NCBI RefSeq assembly: GCF_004136315.1
Contig: NZ_CP029562.1
Coordinates: 1,736,001 to 1,800,000, forward strand
DNA length: 64,000 bases
Direction of reading: 5' to 3'
Source: Mesorhizobium sp. Pch-S
GTDB lineage: Bacteria > Pseudomonadota > Alphaproteobacteria > Rhizobiales > Rhizobiaceae
The stretch's first letter is position 1; every line of letters begins with the position of its first letter. The notes under the pieces were generated by a model. The model was not told where the DNA came from, ran no database searches, and was given only the letters and a program-made list of their open reading frames with translations. A program made the position numbers and the translations under genes. Positions 30,586-41,572 of the stretch are shown here, piece after piece.

Positions 30586-31023
30586 CTATTTGAGCTCCTG
30601 CGCCAGACCGATCAGCAGGCCTTCCGGCCCGCGGATGTAGCAGAGACGGTAGACGTCCTGATAGTCGACGACCTCGCCTTCGAGCTCAGCGCCATGCTTG
30701 CGCAGCCGTTGCAGCGTGTCGTCGATGTCGTCGACGGCGAACATGGCGCGCAGATAGCCGAGCGCATTGACCGGGGCGGTGCGGTGATCGGCGATAACGG
30801 CCGGCCGGATGAAGCGGGAGAGCTCGAGCCGGTTGTGGCCATCCGGCGTGCGCATCATGGCGATCTCGACATGCTGGTCGCCCAGCCCGGTGACACGCCC
30901 GGCCCATTCGCCCTCGATCGTGGCCTGGCCTTCGAGTTCGAGGCCGAGTTCGCGAAAGAAGTCGACTACCTTGGCAAGGTCCTCGACGACGATGCCGATA
31001 TTGTCCATCCGCTTGAGCGCCAT
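30586..31023 (-). CDS. VOC family (glyoxalase-like) protein
   Basis: ATG 31023, with a strong aaggaga site, gives a 145-residue vicinal-oxygen-chelate protein with two beta-alpha-beta-beta-beta modules: MDNIGIVVEDLAKVVDFFRELGLELEG and MFAVDDIDDTLQRLRKHGAELEGEVVDY. The possible metal ligands include the final glutamate region (GPEGLLIGLAQEL). The reaction is unknown; homologues include glyoxalase, dioxygenase and bleomycin-resistance proteins. It appears to be monocistronic. Confidence 0.88.
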   Translation of the reverse strand: MALKRMDNIGIVVEDLAKVVDFFRELGLELEGQATIEGEWAGRVTGLGDQHVEIAMMRTPDGHNRLELSRFIRPAVIADHRTAPVNALGYLRAMFAVDDIDDTLQRLRKHGAELEGEVVDYQDVYRLCYIRGPEGLLIGLAQELK

Positions 31024-31040
31024 GTGTCTCTCCTTGTTTG

Positions 31041-31218
31041 GAGCATGATTTCCAAAACCGGTTCCCACTTTTTGGGATCATGCTGTGGCCAGTTCCTTGT
31101 TGGAGAATGATCTTTTCCAAAAACCGGTTCCCACTTTTTGGGATCAAGCTGTGGCCAGTTCCTTGTTGGAGCATGATCTTCTCCAAAAAACCGGTTCCCA
31201 CTTTTGGGATCATGCTCC
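31041..31218. repeat. three tandem copies of a palindromic rhizobial repeat
   Basis: Units start at 31041, 31103 and 31169. Each reads gagcatgat..tccaaaa accggttcccactttttggg atcatgctc, so the ends (gagcatgat/atcatgctc) are inverted repeats. The units are joined by gtggccagttccttgttg linkers. Period lengths are 62 and 66 bases. The unit is a dispersed repeat of rhizobial spacers as I recall; tandem triplication is the odd part. Confidence 0.9.
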
Positions 31219-31960: not shown

Positions 31961-32148
31961 TCAGGCATCCTGTGCGTGTGCGGCGTGCAGTCTAGAGCAA
32001 TCGCATGGACTGCCGACACCCCCGTTTGTCAGGAGGCTTTCGGGCATCGACCGTTCGGTTGCTGCGAGGTCGAGTAAGAGGAACCGGCGTCGGCTCGCCT
32101 CCGCGAAGCCGCAAGGATCGCTGGTCTGGACCGCCGTTCCTTCGTCCT

Positions 32149-32213
32149 CGTTCCGGCATGGATCCCCGACACTCTGCACTCCCTTCGGTCGCTCCGAGGT
32201 CGAGGATGACGGT
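32149..32213. repeat. dispersed repeat, GGATCCCCGACACTC type (copy 3)
   Basis: This copy reads cgttccggcatggatccccg acactctgcactcccttcgg then gctccgaggtcgaggatgac, and is inverted relative to the copy at 32341-32403. Confidence 0.88.
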
Positions 32214-32340
32214 GGTGGGGAGCGCTCCGGCCAGTCTCCGGCGCCACCGCGATCCTTGCCGGCGCTCCTGGTTGGCGTTCATTCCCGGTGAGATCGATCG
32301 TGACGCCGGCATACGCGATTTGCGCGCGACAGAGAAACCT

Positions 32341-32403
32341 CGTCATCCTCGACCTCGGAGGGAGCGAAGCGACCGCAGAGTGTCGGGGATCCATGCCGGA
32401 ACG
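32341..32403. repeat. dispersed repeat, GGATCCCCGACACTC type (copy 4, inverted)
   Basis: On the minus strand the copy reads cgttccggcatggatccccg and ends in gaggtcgaggatgacg. It is the partner of copy 3 in inverted orientation. Confidence 0.88.
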
Positions 32404-32501
32404 CTGGGAGCAAACCCGGCCGCTTCGAGTGGCGGATGCGGGCCGGCGCCGTAGAAAGCAGAAACGCTCCCGCGCCAACCGGTGGACTGGCGGCGCGGGA
32501 G

Positions 32502-34183
32502 CTAGACGGCTATGGCTTGGGCAGGATCGACGGCTGCATCGTTCCTGGCGCCCGGCGCTGTCTGGGTCCGGTTGCGGCCGGCGAGTTTGGCGCTGTAGAG
32601 CAGCCTGTCGGCCTGCTCGTAGAGCGCCGCGAACGCGGTATCGAACGGCGCATCCGCCATGCCCATGGAGGCGGTAACGGGCCGGCCAAGACCCGGGACG
32701 GCGCTGGCGACGATGGCTGGGATCGCCTGACGCCGACGCTCGGCCTGGACGTGGGCATCGTCTCCGCGCGCGAGCAGCACGAATTCCTCGCCGCCGAGGC
32801 GGAACGCAAGAACCTGCGGGTCCGCCTGAAGTGCCTTGGCCACGGCTTTCAGAACGGCGTCGCCGACCACGTGGCCGTGAGCGTCGTTGATGGCCTTGAA
32901 GTGGTCGAGGTCGAGCACGGCGAGCGTGCGGTAGCCTTCGGCGCGAAACGTCTCGTAATTCTGCTCGAGCACCCGCCGGTTCAGCATCCCGTCAGCGTGT
33001 CGCGCTGGGACAGCCGCTCGAGCATGTCGGCTTCGAAGCGCGCGTGGTCTCGCTGGCGCTTGATCGACATGAAGCGGTCTGCCACGCCAAGCGTGGTGAA
33101 CAGGACTTCGCAGACGCAACCGATATAGAACAACGGCATGGCATCATTGGTCTGCAGCGCGGGAACCAGGCCCGTGGCCAGGCGCACCAGACCGACCAGA
33201 ACCATGGGCGTGTAGCCGACGGCCTGGAACTTGGCGGCCCGGCTGCCGCGGCGCAGTGCGTCGACAAGCGCCAGGATGAAAATGACGATCACCGGGGCGA
33301 ACGCCGCCGTATACAGCATCGACTGAACCGGGCGCCCGACGAAGGGAAATGCCGCGTGAGAGGTGCTGAGAAACATCGCCCAAACGGCGCAATAGACCAG
33401 CGCCTGGCGCAGGCGCGGATGCATGCGGTCGGGTTCGACGAAGCTGTAGGTGAACATCGCGCCGGAAGCGACGGTGAGGCCGAAGATCACCGTCGTCATC
33501 CAGCTCAGGGTCATTGCCGGCGGATCAAAGAGAACGACCGCGAGCCCCGAAGACACCACGATGGTCAGCAGCAGGGAGATGGTGAGCATGGAATGCCAGA
33601 GCACGAACGGCTCGCGCAGGATCCGGTAGAAGGCCGCATTGAAGATGAGCGGCATGGACAGCATTCCGGCAAGCACCGCAAGGAGAAGCAGGTCCGGGCC
33701 CAGGGCGACATCCGATGGTGAGAGATAGGCCTTTTCCAGCGTCATCTGGTGGCTGGGCAGATCGAACGCGACGATGACCTGCGCCGTGTCGCGGGTCACG
33801 GCCGGCAGCGGGACCTTGAAGTAGCCGCCGCGCAGAGCGCTGCGCAGTTCATTCGCCGGCAGGGAGGCCTGGCGCATCGCGCCGTCCCGGTCGATCGCCA
33901 GCAAGTGCACGGCCACAAGCGCGCTGCGCCTTGAAAAGAGATATTGCGGAAGGGCATCGCCGATATCAAAACGCAGCAGCGCCCGCTCGCCTTTGAGCGA
34001 ATAGCTGCGATCTCCGCAGGTCCAGCGCGCGGGCGAGCGGACAATGGTGGGCAGGTCGTCCGACAGGCTGCTCGACGCCCAGCAGGAGCTTCGGATGTCC
34101 GTGGCAGCGCCGGCGGGTGCGGCGTATGCAAGCAGCACCACCAGTGTCGTCAGAAGCGCTTTGCGAAGGTCATTCCAGAACAT
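32502..34183 (-). pseudogene. diguanylate cyclase with 7TM sensor, frameshifted in GGDEF
   Basis: The N-terminal frame (34183 to 32981) encodes a signal peptide, a periplasmic region of about 130 residues, seven transmembrane helices and the start of a GGDEF domain, ending LSQRDTLTGC. The second frame resumes at MLNRRVLEQNYETFRAEGY and continues through LDLDHFKAINDAHGHVVGDAVL and the active-site GGEEF to 32502. Loss of one base near 32988, where DTLTGxLNRR should be uninterrupted, explains the break. The intact protein would synthesise cyclic di-GMP in response to an extracytoplasmic signal. Both halves look otherwise undamaged, so recent inactivation or an assembly indel are both possible. 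Confidence 0.85.
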
Positions 34184-34555
34184 GGATGGACGTTACACGG
34201 CCAATGTTGAGATGCGGTTACTGATCCGCTGGGATGTACTCGTGATCTTAGCATCGGCCCATGAAACGGCCGAAATGGGGCCGGCAACCGACAATCTGCT
34301 CTTGGTCAACGTTTGGAGAAAGCTGCCATTCGCGGGTCAGAATCAAAAGTTCTCTACCGCTCCCATTTCTGCAAAGCAAAGGTGACATTCGAACATCCTA
34401 AAGCGATCACCGGATCAGACGCACCGCCGAGCGCGCCACGGAAGAACAGCCTGATGTCCGAATCTTAGAGGACCGTAATACTTTACATCCGGAAGGCCCC
34501 GGATCACCCTGACTGCAATGACGGATTCGTCACCCCTTTACTGCACGGAAGTTCG
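34184..34555. other. intergenic region before the putative defence gene
   Basis: This 372-base spacer is lower in GC than the host genes and marks the start of the foreign-looking segment. I see no coding frame, tRNA or strong terminator. It probably contains the promoter of the 34556 gene. Confidence 0.4.
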
Positions 34556-37500
34556 ATGTCGGCATCGGCGTACAATCAGGTTCACATTCCACGACCAAAA
34601 CTGTGGCAGGACTTCGAAAAGGGATCCGCACTGCTGTGGCGCAGGATATTGGGCGATCCATCGATCCATCGTTTCGGCAAGAACGGCCAAGCCCAGCATG
34701 GGATGGACATGTACGGATACCGGGATGGCGAGACCGCCAAGATCGTGGGCGTGCAATGCAAGTGCAAAGGGCAGGGCGAGAAGGCCAGCGAGAAGGAGCT
34801 TCGGAGCGATTTCGAAAAAGCGCTCAAGTATGAGCCGAGGCTCACCGAATACTTCTTCACCACGACGGCCGACGACGACGCACCACTTTCTACCCTCGCT
34901 GCCAAGCTAACCGAGGAGCAGCGCGTATTGGGTCGCACCATAGTCGTGCGCGCTTGGGGATGGGATACTCTCGAGGATCAGATATCGGCCCATCCCGACG
35001 TCGCTTTGATGTTCGACCCGAACCATAGTCCGACTGCGGAGCTCCAGTCCCAGCGCCATGAGGAGATAGTCGGCCTTCACAGCAACACGCTGGTCGAGAT
35101 CCGAGCAGTGCAGGCCCTGCTACTGGAGCGGGCGACTGTTGATGGATCTTCTGACGATCCGATAGAAGCGGCGCTCGATGCCGAGATCGATCGGTACAGG
35201 GACCGCGCCAACAAAGGAAAACCGCAGTCTTCACTGGAGCTTTTGAACGACCTGCTGAAGACCCTGACCGAAAAGAATTCGGGACGCATTTGGTTCAGGG
35301 TGAAGGCAAACATCGCCCACTGTCATCTCCAGTTGGGTGACCAGGCTACCGCGGCTGACATGCTGGATGAGGCAGTGGCCCATGCACCAGAGGATCCAAA
35401 GGCGGCTGCCAACGCCATATTGGCGATGATGCTGCGGGGCGATCACCAGAAGGCGTTCCAGGAAGGCCTAGCCGAACTGACCAAGTCTCCCAACAACGAC
35501 GTTCTTGCCGGATACGTCGTTCAAGCGGGCGGCTATGCCGGTGTTGCCGACGCGATCGACAGAATACCAGAGGCGGTTAGAGCTTCCGAAGCAGTCAGGA
35601 AGTATCACCTTCTGAATATGCGAAATGCCGGAGATTCGTCGTGGATCGATCTGGCTCGACGCGGACGGGAGGGCAACGCCGAAGACGAATTCTACAAACG
35701 CCATGCCGCTGAAGCCGTCATCACCGAAATTGTCGATGGCGACCATCGTACGAGTTGGAAGCTGACTGTGGAGGCCAGGAACCGTCTGCGCCAAGCTGGA
35801 AAAGACCTGGTCGATCTTTGGAATCTGGCGAAGCAGGAGGAGGCTCCGGACCGACCTGACCATCTCGCGCTTTGCATCAACGGCGCCTTGGCTCTTCTTG
35901 CGGTAGGCGACGGTGACGCTGCGAAGGAGCTAATCCTCGAGGGTTTAGCCGTTTCGGGCGGCAAGGACCCAGACATTCAGGTTCGCGTGGCTGCGTTTGC
36001 CATGGAACTGGGCGACGAAGCGCTGGCAAGAGAGGCTTTTCCCAAACTTGCCGACAACGGCCCTGCGCTACTGATGCGTGCACAGATCGCTGCACGGCTC
36101 GGCGACTGGGATTATCTGATGAGCCTAGATGGAACCGAGGCTCTCGAGACGATCCCAGAGACCGAACGCGAGTTGGTCAAGGCATTGGCGTCGAGTGCCA
36201 GCATAAAAACGAACGCGCTGGACGATCCGGCCGGTGCGTCGTCTGATCTGAACGACATGATCGTGCTTTACAAGAACAACGGTCGTGCATCGGTGCTTTT
36301 GGCGCAACTGGCGGATGAGCTGTGTCTGCCGGAAGAATCCTCTCGTGCCTATAGCAATGCTCTAGCCTCGATCTCCAACAACTCGCACATCGCCAGCCGC
36401 GCGATGGTGGCCGGTTATGCAACCCGTCTCCACGATCATGCGGAGGTGATCAGATTGATGGACGGCTACGTCGATGACAGCGTCGACTCGAAAGACCTGT
36501 TCGATCTGGCCAGTGCCTTCGCATACGAGTTCCCTCCAAGAGCGCGGGCGGTCGAATTCTTCGCGAACCTTGACGATTCGATCAGGAACTTGCGCCAATA
36601 CGTGATGCTAGAAGGCATCCTGCACTACCACAGGGGCGAGCTGAATCTGGCCGCGGACCGTTTCTTAAAGTCACGGGATCTTTCGCCCGATCTAATCACG
36701 CCTATTCTAATGCAAGCCCAGACGCTGCTCCGGTTGAGACGGAAGTCGGAACTTACGGCATTGGTCGCCGATCTGGATTTATCGTTGATGCACGGCAATC
36801 CTCGGGAGAGGATGGATTTCGCACACCTACTCGTCGCTGGCGGGCGCGCCGAGGACGGTCTTGACCTGGGTTACGCCGTTCTGGACGCAAATCCGAATGA
36901 TCCGAAGGTCGCGCTCAAATGGATCGGCTTAGCCCTGGGCCAGTTAAAGCGAATTCACGAACTGAGCGATGCCGCCATCGGCGTAGGAATGTGGACTAGC
37001 TTGGAGTCCGACGATGGCCAGATCAACACGTTCTTGGTGGTAGATGGACCCGGCGAACCCTCGGAGAAGAAGTTCGGCAAAGGGCACGTTGTGGCCGAGG
37101 CAGCCGTCGGGCACCGCGTGGGTGATTCATTCGACGTCGAGGACCGATTGGGGCGGACCGTTCGCTGGACGGTGCAGCAGGTTCGACACAAATATTCTCA
37201 TGCTTACGCCGAACTGACCGAGAACTTCAATATCCGGTTCCCTGATGAGGACGGCTTTTATGTCATCCGCACTGTCGGCGATGACATCGGCCCGTTCCTC
37301 GATGTGATGAGACGGCAGGGCGAGCAACGGGAGAGGATTCACGAACTCTATACCAATGGACCTTTGCCCATATCGGTGCTGACTGAATTCTCCGGAGGAG
37401 GCAGCGCGCTTCGCTTTGCGGATTCACTCAGGATGGAAGGGATCGGTATCGAGGCCTGCGAGGGCACTCTGCCCGAGCGAAATTGGGCGACGCAAACGGC

Positions 37501-38527
37501 CAAAGCCCATTTTGGCAAGGGTGTAGTCCTCGACACGCTGACTTATTGGGCTGTCGTGGGGATAAACGGTTTGGAGATTTTGAAGGACCTGTACGGCAGG
37601 ATTCTCCTTGCTAGATCGACCGCAGACGAGATCGGCCAGTTGCATGCAGACGAGGATCTGGTTTCCGAAACCGAACATTCCGGCAGTGCCTACTTCCACA
37701 AGGGCCAGTTCCATTTCGACGAGTTCACGCCCGAGCGTGCCAAACAGCTTGCCGACGCCATCGCGATGCGCGAGGACGCTATGCAGGCTGATTGCAACGT
37801 CGTACCTGTTCACGCTCCAAATGACATCGACCCGAGGTTGCTCGAGACCGCTTGCCGCGGCGCGCTTGATCCAATTTTCGTGGCTCGCGAACATGGCATG
37901 CTGCTCGTCACTGACGACAAGCGATATCGTAACTGGGCCGGTAGCCTAAAGGTACGAGCAGTATGGCTCCAGGCGATTTTCCTCGCGGCCAGGGAGAGTG
38001 GACGCCTGGATGACAAGGTGTATGCCCGGTTGGTTGGCCAACTGGCACTGCTGCGGCACACCTCTATCACCTGCAGCACTGGCGACATCGTTGAGATCGT
38101 AGCCCAAGCCACCCCGGAGACGAAGTATACTATCGACGCCATCGCCGAAGCGATAGGAGTCGAGAAGGCTGACATTCTCTCCCACTACAAGGTGACGACC
38201 GAAGCGGTCATACGGCTTTTGCAGACCGGGCCGACACCCAATGCAGAATATGCCATCGGGCTGCTGATGCGAAATCTTCTCCGGTACAGGACCAGCGACC
38301 GGCGCCAAATCCTTACGGGATTGAAGAGGACGCTTTCCGATCAGCCTGGAGGAAGGGCTTTGTTTGACCGTTGGAGTAAAGGCGGTTCGACGGACGATGG
38401 TCTCAAGGTAGACGGACCGCGCGCGGCGCATGTTTGGAAACCTGATCCCCGTACCCTATCGAAGCGAAACGCGGCAGTTAAGGCGCGAGCCAAGAAAGCC
38501 CACCGACGTGCTTTCGGGAAGCGTTGA
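34556..38527 (+). CDS. nuclease-TPR-GreAB-C-PIN protein, candidate defence effector
   Basis: The 1,323-residue protein appears to have four parts. Residues about 10-150 form a restriction-endonuclease-like domain: GxD at Asp51 (GMDMYGY) and Q67-x-K69 in IVGVQCKCKG, a Q-type PD-(D/E)XK centre. Residues about 220-820 are helical, with many TPR-like A/L pairs. About 820-900 is a GreAB-C-like beta domain (GKGHVVAEAAVGHRVGDSF). About 985-1180 is PIN-like, with acidic residues Asp993 (VVLDTLTYW), Glu1025 and Asp1120-Asp1121 (LLVTDD). From memory, Pfam names a PIN-TPR-GreABC family tied to biological conflict systems. ATG 34556. Its lower GC suggests transfer. I infer RNA or DNA cleavage upon infection. 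Confidence 0.75.
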   Translation: MSASAYNQVHIPRPKLWQDFEKGSALLWRRILGDPSIHRFGKNGQAQHGMDMYGYRDGETAKIVGVQCKCKGQGEKASEKELRSDFEKALKYEPRLTEYFFTTTADDDAPLSTLAAKLTEEQRVLGRTIVVRAWGWDTLEDQISAHPDVALMFDPNHSPTAELQSQRHEEIVGLHSNTLVEIRAVQALLLERATVDGSSDDPIEAALDAEIDRYRDRANKGKPQSSLELLNDLLKTLTEKNSGRIWFRVKANIAHCHLQLGDQATAADMLDEAVAHAPEDPKAAANAILAMMLRGDHQKAFQEGLAELTKSPNNDVLAGYVVQAGGYAGVADAIDRIPEAVRASEAVRKYHLLNMRNAGDSSWIDLARRGREGNAEDEFYKRHAAEAVITEIVDGDHRTSWKLTVEARNRLRQAGKDLVDLWNLAKQEEAPDRPDHLALCINGALALLAVGDGDAAKELILEGLAVSGGKDPDIQVRVAAFAMELGDEALAREAFPKLADNGPALLMRAQIAARLGDWDYLMSLDGTEALETIPETERELVKALASSASIKTNALDDPAGASSDLNDMIVLYKNNGRASVLLAQLADELCLPEESSRAYSNALASISNNSHIASRAMVAGYATRLHDHAEVIRLMDGYVDDSVDSKDLFDLASAFAYEFPPRARAVEFFANLDDSIRNLRQYVMLEGILHYHRGELNLAADRFLKSRDLSPDLITPILMQAQTLLRLRRKSELTALVADLDLSLMHGNPRERMDFAHLLVAGGRAEDGLDLGYAVLDANPNDPKVALKWIGLALGQLKRIHELSDAAIGVGMWTSLESDDGQINTFLVVDGPGEPSEKKFGKGHVVAEAAVGHRVGDSFDVEDRLGRTVRWTVQQVRHKYSHAYAELTENFNIRFPDEDGFYVIRTVGDDIGPFLDVMRRQGEQRERIHELYTNGPLPISVLTEFSGGGSALRFADSLRMEGIGIEACEGTLPERNWATQTAKAHFGKGVVLDTLTYWAVVGINGLEILKDLYGRILLARSTADEIGQLHADEDLVSETEHSGSAYFHKGQFHFDEFTPERAKQLADAIAMREDAMQADCNVVPVHAPNDIDPRLLETACRGALDPIFVAREHGMLLVTDDKRYRNWAGSLKVRAVWLQAIFLAARESGRLDDKVYARLVGQLALLRHTSITCSTGDIVEIVAQATPETKYTIDAIAEAIGVEKADILSHYKVTTEAVIRLLQTGPTPNAEYAIGLLMRNLLRYRTSDRRQILTGLKRTLSDQPGGRALFDRWSKGGSTDDGLKVDGPRAAHVWKPDPRTLSKRNAAVKARAKKAHRRAFGKR

Positions 38528-38918
38528 TCGTCGACGGACGTAGGGTTGGTCGTTGGCAATTGGCTGTCGGTGTGCTGACGTCCCCCTTTTTCCTCGCCTT
38601 TTCAAGGGCCTTCTCGATGAGCTTGTCGGAAATGGTGGAAGGTCTCGATCGGACTGGACCGACCTCTTTCAGGATGATGAAAAGGATATTTGAACGGCCG
38701 ACATGACGGCACAAAGTTGCCGTTCATTGCCATAGGTAAAACATCCTCACGGCCAGCGCTAAGACACCAATAGCATTATCCTGTTAACGCAGGCCGTCTC
38801 ACCTCTAGGCCAACCCAACCGGCCGCGCTACTTTCTCTGCGAATGATTTGGTGATTTGCTCGTCATGAGCGGGGCCTCAGCGCCACCTGCCGGAGCAATG
38901 TCGGTTTTCACCGCCGAC
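38528..38918. other. intergenic region between defence and metallopeptidase genes
   Basis: This 391-base spacer shows only short frames on both strands (for example one containing DKLIEKALEKARKKG on the minus strand, 38478-38714), none convincing. No integrase or tRNA sequence is recognised. Confidence 0.4.
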
Positions 38919-39665
38919 CTAGGCAACACTTGTGTCTTGCCGCGGGAGAGCCTCCGACTTTCGAGATTCGTCCCTACATATTTCGCTGATCCACTTGGCA
39001 ACACTGACTTCATTTTGGCTGAGGGCATGCCAATGTTTGAGATGCTTATGAATTGACAAGCCGACAGGTACGGTCGCAACGAGATTGTTATCGCGGATGA
39101 TCGTATCAGGCTTCGTCCTATCGAAAATGTATCGAGCGATCTTCATAGCCTTGGGTGTCAGTGTTTTGGATGCTGTTAGCTCTGGAAGCGCAGCTTGAAA
39201 CCACTCCTCATCGACGACCGCATCGCGGTGTTCTTCATTTAACGCATTAAAGTAACTGACTGCTCCCGATTGGACAGCACTAGGCTCCCTAGCCATCGCA
39301 TCTAGCGCTATCAAGGAATAGCACTCGCACAGCATTTCCTCGACCCAGTGATTTCCGTCAATTCGGGGATGTCGAAGGTCCGCTCGAGCTGCGAGATGAC
39401 CAAACTCGTGCGAAAGCTGATAGGCGAACTGCCAAGGCCTATTCTCACCAGCTGTTAGAATAATCAGTTCGTTTGAGGTGTCTGCGGCATACATCGGTGT
39501 CTCACGAGTGGTTGTCCGTTTTATCGTTATTGTTTTCGACTTTGTGTCGGGAAAACCATGCACACCGAAGAGAGTAGTGGCCGTTGAGGCCAACACGGCA
39601 TCTAATTCTGCGCGCTCATAGTCATGAACGCCAACAATCTCAAAACGCGAGAGATCAAGGCTCAC
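38919..39665 (-). CDS. zincin metallopeptidase (ImmA/IrrE-like)
   Basis: A GTG at 39665 with an aagga site nine bases upstream gives 248 residues; a TTG at 39698 would add eleven. The HExxH zinc motif is visible as SHEFGHLAA at about residue 85, with a downstream glutamate cluster (WVEEMLCECYSLIALDAMA) that could supply the third ligand. The layout resembles ImmA/IrrE-type peptidases that cleave repressors in mobile elements, but the N-terminal part (RFEIVGVHDYERAELDAVL) is unlike the usual form. It lies between the defence gene and the phage cassette, convergent with the first. It could belong to either. Confidence 0.65.
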   Translation of the reverse strand: MSLDLSRFEIVGVHDYERAELDAVLASTATTLFGVHGFPDTKSKTITIKRTTTRETPMYAADTSNELIILTAGENRPWQFAYQLSHEFGHLAARADLRHPRIDGNHWVEEMLCECYSLIALDAMAREPSAVQSGAVSYFNALNEEHRDAVVDEEWFQAALPELTASKTLTPKAMKIARYIFDRTKPDTIIRDNNLVATVPVGLSIHKHLKHWHALSQNEVSVAKWISEICRDESRKSEALPRQDTSVA

Positions 39666-39723
39666 AGCCGCTATTCCTTGAATATGAGCAAAAACCAAAC
39701 TGACGGCTGGAGTGCGTTAGACT

Positions 39724-40182
39724 GTGACTGTTGGCAGGACTTTCGAACATACGCAAGAGTTGATGGACCTTATCTGCGAACGCCTCGCGGGAGGAGAAAG
39801 CCTGCGCTCAATCTGCCGTGACGAGGACATGCCTAGCAGAGCAAAGGTGTTCCGCTGGTTATTGGCGGATACGGAGTTCGCCACCCGCTATGCCCATGCC
39901 CGCGACGCCCAGGCGGATGCGCTGGTGGACGAGATGCTCGACATCGCCGATGACAGTTCCAACGACTGGATGGAGCAGCGTGGCCGCGATGGCGAAGTGA
40001 CCGGCTGGAAGGAGAATGGCGAGTCGCTGAAGCGCTCGGCGCTGCGGCTGAGCACGCGGCAATGGATCGCCGAGAAGCTGAAGCCGAAGAAATACGGCAA
40101 CAAGGTCGCGCTCACCGATGCCGATGGCGGGCCGCTGACCGTGAATGTGATCCAGCGTGCCGCGCATCGACCTGCCGAGTGA
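39724..40182 (+). CDS. terminase small subunit
   Basis: A GTG start at 39724 gives a 152-residue DNA-recognition protein. Its N-terminal HTH (ELMDLICERLAGGESLRSICRDEDMPSRAKVFRWL) is followed by a helical oligomerisation part (ALVDEMLDIADDSSNDW and SLKRSALRLSTRQWIAEKL) ending in a KPKKYGNKV basic patch. This is the Terminase_5-like small subunit used by many podoviruses, which selects pac/cos DNA for the large subunit. It overlaps the large-subunit gene by 26 bases. Confidence 0.9.
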   Translation: MTVGRTFEHTQELMDLICERLAGGESLRSICRDEDMPSRAKVFRWLLADTEFATRYAHARDAQADALVDEMLDIADDSSNDWMEQRGRDGEVTGWKENGESLKRSALRLSTRQWIAEKLKPKKYGNKVALTDADGGPLTVNVIQRAAHRPAE

Positions 40183-41572
40183 CTGGGCGCCGCGCGCCTA
40201 TCAGGAACCGGCCTGGCAATCCTGGCTCAACGGCTGCAACCGGCAACTGCTGGTGTGGCACCGCCGCGCCGGCAAGGACGACATCAACCTGCGCATGCAT
40301 TCCGTCGGCTGCTTCAACCGCGTCGGCACCTACTGGCACATGCTGCCGGAATATTCGCAGGCGCGCAAAGCGATCTGGGACGCCGTCAACCCCAACACCG
40401 GCAAGCGGCGCATCGACGAGGCCTTCCCGAAAGCGCTGCGCGAGAATACGCGCGAGAGCGACATGTTCATCCGCTTCAAGAACGGGTCGACATGGCAGGT
40501 TGTCGGCTCCGACAATTTCAACGCGCTGATCGGCACGCCGCCGGTCGGCCTCACCGCTTCGGAATGGGCGCTGGCCAACCCGATGGCCTGGGCCTATCTG
40601 GCGCCGATCCTCGCCGAAAACGGCGGCTGGGCCTCATTCATCTCGACGCCGCGCGGCAACAACCATCTGAAGGCGATGCTGGACCGCTTCCGCAACGACG
40701 CGGCCTGGTTCACGCAGGTGCTGACGGCGCGTGACACCGGCGCGATCTCGGATGCGGCGATCGAGGCGCAGCGGGCAGAATATGAGGCGCTGTTCGGCAA
40801 GACCGTCGCCGACCTGCTGGTGGAGCAGGAGTTCTACTGCTCGTTCGCCGGTGCCACGGTGGGCGCCTATTGGGGTGCGGAGCTGGCGACGGCGGACGTG
40901 CAGGGGCGCATCGGCGTGGTGCCTGTCGACTGGAGCCAGCCGGTGCACACGGCCTGGGATCTCGGCAAGGCGGCGAACAACCCGATCTGGTGTTTCCAGG
41001 TGATCGACGGGCGGCCGCACATCGTTGATTTCTACCGGCCGGAAACGGATGACCTGGAAGACTGGTGCCTCTGGCTGGACGCACGCGGCTATCACGGCAA
41101 CGACTATGTGCCGCATGACGCGGTGGTGAAGAACTGGGGCGACAGGCGCACCCGCGTCGAGACGCTGAAAAGCCATGGCCGCAAACCGAAGATCGTGACG
41201 ATGGCCAGCGTCGCCGACGGCATCAATGCCGGGCGCGAGACGATCAAACTGGCCGAGTTCCATCTCGGCCCCGACGAACGCGGCGAGCGCATGCAGCACG
41301 GCCTCGACGGGCTGAAGATGTACCGCCGCACATGGGACGATGAACGCAAGAGCTTCGTCGAGACCCCGGTGAAGGACTGGGCCGAACATATCGGATCGAG
41401 CTTCCGCTATCTCGGCCTCGCCTGGCGCGACGTCGCGCCGGCTTATGTGCCGAAGCGGCAGGTGGAAGGCCCGACCTACCAGGTGACCGCAACCGGCGTG
41501 GTGCGCGCCGACATCGGCGTGAAAGCCGCGGTCGAGGCGATGGTGCGGCGCAAGAAGAGGATGGATGGGTGA
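40157..41572 (+). CDS. terminase large subunit
   Basis: The 471-residue packaging motor starts at GTG 40157. The N-terminal ATPase has the Walker A-like HRRAGKDD at residues 35-42 and a Walker B-type segment near GLTASEWAL (about 135). The C-terminal nuclease domain begins near VPVDWSQPVHTAWDLGKA, with an acidic residue in the AWDLG motif, and carries ADGINAGRETIKL further on. It uses ATP to translocate DNA into the procapsid and cuts it at the end. The length is normal for the family. Portal follows after a repeat-filled gap of 405 bases, unusual for a phage packaging operon. Confidence 0.93.
   Translation: MPRIDLPSDWAPRAYQEPAWQSWLNGCNRQLLVWHRRAGKDDINLRMHSVGCFNRVGTYWHMLPEYSQARKAIWDAVNPNTGKRRIDEAFPKALRENTRESDMFIRFKNGSTWQVVGSDNFNALIGTPPVGLTASEWALANPMAWAYLAPILAENGGWASFISTPRGNNHLKAMLDRFRNDAAWFTQVLTARDTGAISDAAIEAQRAEYEALFGKTVADLLVEQEFYCSFAGATVGAYWGAELATADVQGRIGVVPVDWSQPVHTAWDLGKAANNPIWCFQVIDGRPHIVDFYRPETDDLEDWCLWLDARGYHGNDYVPHDAVVKNWGDRRTRVETLKSHGRKPKIVTMASVADGINAGRETIKLAEFHLGPDERGERMQHGLDGLKMYRRTWDDERKSFVETPVKDWAEHIGSSFRYLGLAWRDVAPAYVPKRQVEGPTYQVTATGVVRADIGVKAAVEAMVRRKKRMDG

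Follow-up and report, generated by a model that had tools for sequence, protein, structure and literature searches.

What does a single bacterial gene do when it encodes two apparent nucleases, a tetratricopeptide-repeat (TPR) scaffold and a domain resembling the C-terminal part of the transcription factors GreA and GreB? The question arises in the window, a stretch of 64,000 nucleotides from Mesorhizobium sp. Pch-S (NZ_CP029562.1, positions 1,736,001 to 1,800,000), where such a gene lies just before a prophage. We consider it somewhat probable that the gene, spread by horizontal transfer, specifies an immune protein that works on its own and belongs to the TPR-GreA/B-C-PIN system, in the form that carries a Cap4/Mrr-like PD-(D/E)XK effector.

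Domain layout and catalytic residues

The stop-free frame extends 29 codons upstream of position 34556, which would give a protein of 1,352 residues; 34556 was chosen as the start because the sequence MS[AE]SA found there is common to 10 of 22 aligned rows. The resulting layout is as follows:

34556..38527, + strand: whole gene, REase-TPR-GreAB-C-PIN, 1,323 aa
34583..35029, + strand: REase, PD-(D/E)XK domain, residues 10-158
34706-34708, 34754-34756 and 34760-34762, + strand: codons of REase residues D51, Q67 and K69
35030..35170, + strand: variable linker, residues 159-205 (mean identity to 21 relatives 0.36; dN/dS 0.48)
35171..36970, + strand: TPR-type helices, residues 206-805 (approximate limits; Pfam and profile matches)
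36971..37195, + strand: GreA/GreB C-terminal domain, residues 806-880
37196..37510, + strand: segment linking GreAB-C to PIN, largely helical in the predicted model, residues 881-985
37511..38005, + strand: PIN nuclease domain, residues 986-1150, with acids D993, D1024, D1105 and D1120/D1121
38006..38524, + strand: C-terminal helices and basic tail, residues 1151-1323 (from the model, of low confidence from about residue 1277)

This layout is consistently supported by profiles, by AlphaFold models and by the conservation of catalytic residues, and the REase-TPR-GreAB-C-PIN anatomy claimed in a first-pass annotation is thereby borne out. The REase, GreAB-C and PIN folds are all present in the models, and the catalytic residues of both nucleases are kept among homologues. 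In the Pfam scan, PF20698 matches the PIN region (E=1.5e-17, 64.6 bits against a cut-off of 27.8), TPR_14 and other TPR families match around residues 251-314 (TPR_14 with 28.9 bits against 23.5), and PF24407 gives a weak match to residues 915-944 (E 0.1). The profile search matched TPR structures over parts of residues 239-795 and GreB/GreA structures in the GreAB-C region.

The N-terminal domain combines a PD-(D/E)XK fold with the D...(D/E/Q)xK residues of such nucleases. The centre previously suggested, D51, Q67 and K69, is invariant in 22 of 22 aligned rows; in a larger alignment of 27 rows, one of which has no REase domain, the Q67 position is Q in 26 of 26, and the K69 position is K in 23 and R in 3. 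The C-terminal domain likewise has both the fold and the acidic residues of a PIN nuclease. D993 and D1121 each occur in 27 of 27 rows, and the D1120 position holds D in 13 and E in 10. These three acids had been named correctly, but the fourth had been placed at Glu1025, which is E in only 9 of 27 rows; the conserved acid is Asp1024 (D in 23, E in 2). Position 1105 is D in 23 of the 27 rows. Compared with the copy in Hoeflea (89% amino acid identity), dN/dS is 0.07 for the REase, 0.09 for GreAB-C, 0.17 for PIN and 0.26 for the TPR region; the gene is thus under purifying selection, strongest in the REase and GreAB-C domains.

Relatives and the published family

The whole-protein search scored the 7,997 candidates sharing most words and yielded 21 database proteins, all with precomputed PF20698; 18 of them covered at least 91% of the query (BLASTP), and identities ranged between 92% and 20% across the matches. 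A search with residues 800-1200, which scored 7,996 candidates chosen in the same way, did not widen the census, since only 4 of its 16 proteins (P0023-P0026) were new. Matches to PF20698 occurred, our genome included, in 6 of 199 genomes of the family sample, 14 of 398 of the phylum sample, 3 of 385 of the class sample and 10 of 146 genomes of the genus, a patchy distribution.

At E <= 0.001, 28 distinct genomes (again with our own) matched PF20698 and 23 of these had a full-length gene; the five left out were G117 (stops, no long frame), G131, G1007 and G487 (fragments) and G973 (unreadable N-terminus). Sixteen of the 23 genes scored above the Pfam cut-off and seven below it (G140, G326, G338, G378, G916, G1031 and G1052). 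The REase profile matched 17 of the 23 genes, including 15 of the 16 above the cut-off, and none of the shuffled controls; having been built from relatives of this protein, it would miss other REase families. REase, GreAB-C and PIN profiles matched together in 13 of the 23, all of them among the 16. L032, L034, L036 and L086, where the match reported for one domain was a minor stretch, were judged on whole-protein scores; L040 was grouped with L039 by eye, and the L041 protein fell below the PF20698 threshold at E 0.01. The six genes counted as non-REase begin with a DUF676 esterase, bDLD3 (two genes, one by Pfam and one by eye), PNP_UDP_1, an EAD-like domain (L033, by eye) and one unassigned domain. 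One protein counted as non-REase, a PF24407/PF20698 protein at L090:4599-9188, has an N-terminus that looks Cap4-nuclease-like by eye.

The REase fusion is therefore common, not unique. Four loci (L042, L043, L087 and L089) have the REase with no GreAB-C or PIN profile match; the REase match of L089 is weak (2.2e-5), and Pfam Mrr_cat agrees with it. Among the REase-headed proteins are double-PIN forms of about 2,050-2,130 residues with a PF24407 HTH and PF20698 (L059:7872-14126, L087:1678-7893 and L089:7543-13920; L061 and L087 are one record). They resemble the present protein in their related N-terminal REase and their PF20698 match, but are longer, carry PF24407 and, in L043, L087 and L089, give no GreAB-C profile match. 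They constitute a second core sharing the nuclease.

Effector nucleases of the Cap4/Avs4/LmuA type offer a further comparison. The present protein lacks a SAVED, STAND or SMC partner, and its nuclease is instead fused to TPR-GreAB-C-PIN. In Lamassu, an SMC-type protein, LmuB, stands beside LmuA; membership of that system, considered on account of an LmuA match, was ruled out, as the Pfam scan found no SMC among the two upstream and two downstream neighbours and the ORF at 38919-39698.

The TPR-GreA/B-C-PIN conflict system was defined in 2021 (eLife, PMC8195603), in passages that count the REase as one of 13 interchangeable N-terminal effectors and predict a standalone anti-viral protein acting on virus-hijacked RNA polymerase. 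In that scheme the PIN cleaves the transcript as it is extruded, and the N-terminal effector is an apoptotic back-up. The grouping of PIN, TPR and GreABC was thus already known, as the first-pass annotation had stated, but the novelty that it saw in the N-terminal nuclease fusion does not survive, because those passages list the REase and the census shows it to be common. In domain order (TPR before GreA/B-C, GreA/B-C before a PF20698 PIN), in its REase effector and as a standalone gene of which only 34430-38715 is shared with Hoeflea, the present sequence fits this family as a further member, of its REase-headed variant. Those passages give the REase as a class, not this sequence; what is added here are the individual catalytic residues, the cassette edges and the divergence of the Gre motif. 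TPR-GreA/B-PIN systems are also named in a passage of PMC9503650, other PIN systems are validated in PMC13092281, in a passage that does not include this protein, and the relevant passage of PMC7159879 does not describe it. Our searches of an open-access library showed no experiment on the REase-TPR-GreA/B-C-PIN architecture.

A one-gene cassette and its surroundings

Comparison by blastn of positions 34000-39800 delimits the unit of transfer. Hoeflea sp. BAL378 (L051) matches only 34430-38715, at 89.3% nucleotide identity, and a Devosia metagenome-assembled genome (L052) shares 34481-38529 at 77.6%. The edges are:

34430..34555, + strand: upstream shared stretch, left cassette edge (Hoeflea from 34430, Devosia from 34481)
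38528..38715, + strand: downstream shared stretch, right cassette edge (Hoeflea)

A one-gene cassette has moved horizontally between genera. Forty-eight plasmid records match the gene, ten of them covering at least 80% of the query. No direct repeat pair was found at the cassette ends within 32000-40200, and promoter and terminator scans gave chance-level results. Among the best 40 rows of each search, a same-genus copy of the upstream gene (L044) matched about 32556-34105 and a related prophage stretch (L083) matched mainly 40177-41443 with short phage-gene matches; neither gives a clean junction, and no empty site was found.

The gene is flanked in the window by a 7TMR-DISM gene on one side and prophage genes on the other, all of them outside the shared cassette. 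In Hoeflea, genes for RepC, a ParA-type ATPase and HipA lie nearby. The search for the fusion near defence genes, as had been advised, was partly rewarded: the Devosia copy has a candidate defence gene, a PDC-S49 KAP NTPase, on one side and a CBASS cyclase on the other, with one small ORF between on each side, and in Moraniibacteriota one copy has a Type II methyltransferase and Vsr as neighbours. This context is anecdotal, because the scan took in ten neighbours at three loci and had no control loci. The Devosia copy is itself broken into three frames in its record (L052:7965-11978), through either decay or an assembly error.

The defence role is nevertheless likely by analogy with the family and the context of a few relatives, given PF20698, the patchy presence, the one-gene cassette, the plasmid copies and the Devosia and Moraniibacteriota neighbourhoods. 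Of the two-nuclease defence effector proposed earlier, the pair of nuclease domains carried by a TPR/GreAB-C scaffold and this probable role stand; its novelty does not. A role outside defence, in stress response or RNA quality control at stalled transcription complexes and with the REase serving genome maintenance, would also suit a GreA-family domain and a PIN RNase fold, but we regard it as improbable in view of the same patchiness and plasmid copies, the single-gene transfer between genera and the exchangeable N-terminal domains. Carriage as cargo of the adjoining prophage is less probable still. A terminase small subunit gene begins 1.2 kb downstream, with genes for head, tail and lysis functions beyond it, but the stretch shared with Hoeflea stops before the prophage; a pattern-based scan found no relative among viral contigs, a phage collection gave one match of 135 residues, and L083, a same-genus relative of the prophage's second packaging gene, shows no copy of the present gene in its 19 kb among the best 40 rows. 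Cargo status was rejected on the cassette edges and the near-absence of phage relatives, and the position before a prophage, to which significance had been attached, is incidental.

Several features of the surroundings deserve mention. The prophage (39724-62089, + strand) encodes an Sf6-type small terminase, a major head protein, an amidase, virion proteins, a tail fibre and an endolysin, with no integrase among the scanned proteins. The stretch 38528-39723 has a low GC content (51.6%) and contains an ORF of 259 residues (38919-39698, - strand) with an HEFGH motif and no Pfam match above the cut-off nor any PADLOC, NCBIfam or PHROGs match, which from its motif we take, by eye, to be ImmA/IrrE-like. 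Upstream, the 7TMR-DISM ORF (32981-34183) partly coincides with a second ORF, 32502-33119, which is read in a different frame and shows a GGEEF motif by eye, as if 32502-34183 (- strand) were one diguanylate cyclase gene split between frames. An inverted repeat with 63-nt arms, 92% complementary, lies between host genes at 32149-32403, and the translation of the ORF at 30686-31213 (- strand) has, by eye, tandem-like short repeats at 31038-31213.

The GreAB-C domain and possible modes of action

In GreB, the motif D121-S122-P123 contacts the beta' rim helices of RNA polymerase. The present protein has G843-H844-V845 aligned with these residues and with N123-S124-P125 of GreA (Gre numbers counted from the alignment), so docking is the least certain part of our reading, although it stays plausible. 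The protein shares its GreAB-C domain with the secondary-channel factors GreA, GreB and Gfh1, but lacks their coiled coil with its tip acids (D41/E44 in the N-terminal coiled coil of GreA/GreB, according to a passage of PMC7527559) and has a PIN as a possible RNA-cutting part instead. The GreA/B N-terminal family was not found by Pfam at E up to 1, and TPR helices precede GreAB-C in its place. Identity as a GreA/GreB transcript-cleavage factor was ruled out on the absence of the coiled coil, and any RNA cutting would therefore come from the PIN or from the polymerase itself.

It is conceivable, though rather unlikely, that the protein acts in defence with a GreAB-C that no longer binds polymerase and has become a structural or regulatory module, both nucleases being released on sensing and leading to abortive infection. 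The replaced motif in this branch and the missing coiled coil point this way, as does a histidine at the middle position in 18 of 27 relatives (counted by eye). Against it, the domain is under the strong purifying selection noted above, ten of the 27 rows keep the proline and one (L036) the exact D-S-P. Moreover, the passage of PMC7527559, in which the globular domain of GreA confers binding, reports that S121P abolishes binding but that S124L, in the same motif, retains it.

Under the immune reading that we prefer, the TPR superhelix would hold the protein quiet and sense an infection cue, and GreAB-C may, less certainly in this branch, recruit it to polymerase that is carrying out abnormal or phage transcription. 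The PIN, whose fold and acids are present, would cleave RNA at the polymerase, and the REase would cleave DNA. Its target may be the DNA under transcription, or the cut may be the lethal back-up of the 2021 proposal. A more speculative scheme, to which we give a low probability, is transcription-coupled restriction: GreAB-C would dock on a polymerase transcribing an invader, the PIN would destroy the transcript and the REase would cut the template in cis, a role distinct from the apoptotic back-up of the 2021 proposal. If true, the invader would be recognized by being transcribed, not by sequence or modification. With an intact reading frame and pinned catalytic residues, this copy would lend itself to a first test of whether transcribing RNA polymerase can be linked to an immune protein. 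Four further loci of the same genome (L045-L048) match GreA_GreB (PF01272) above the cut-off.
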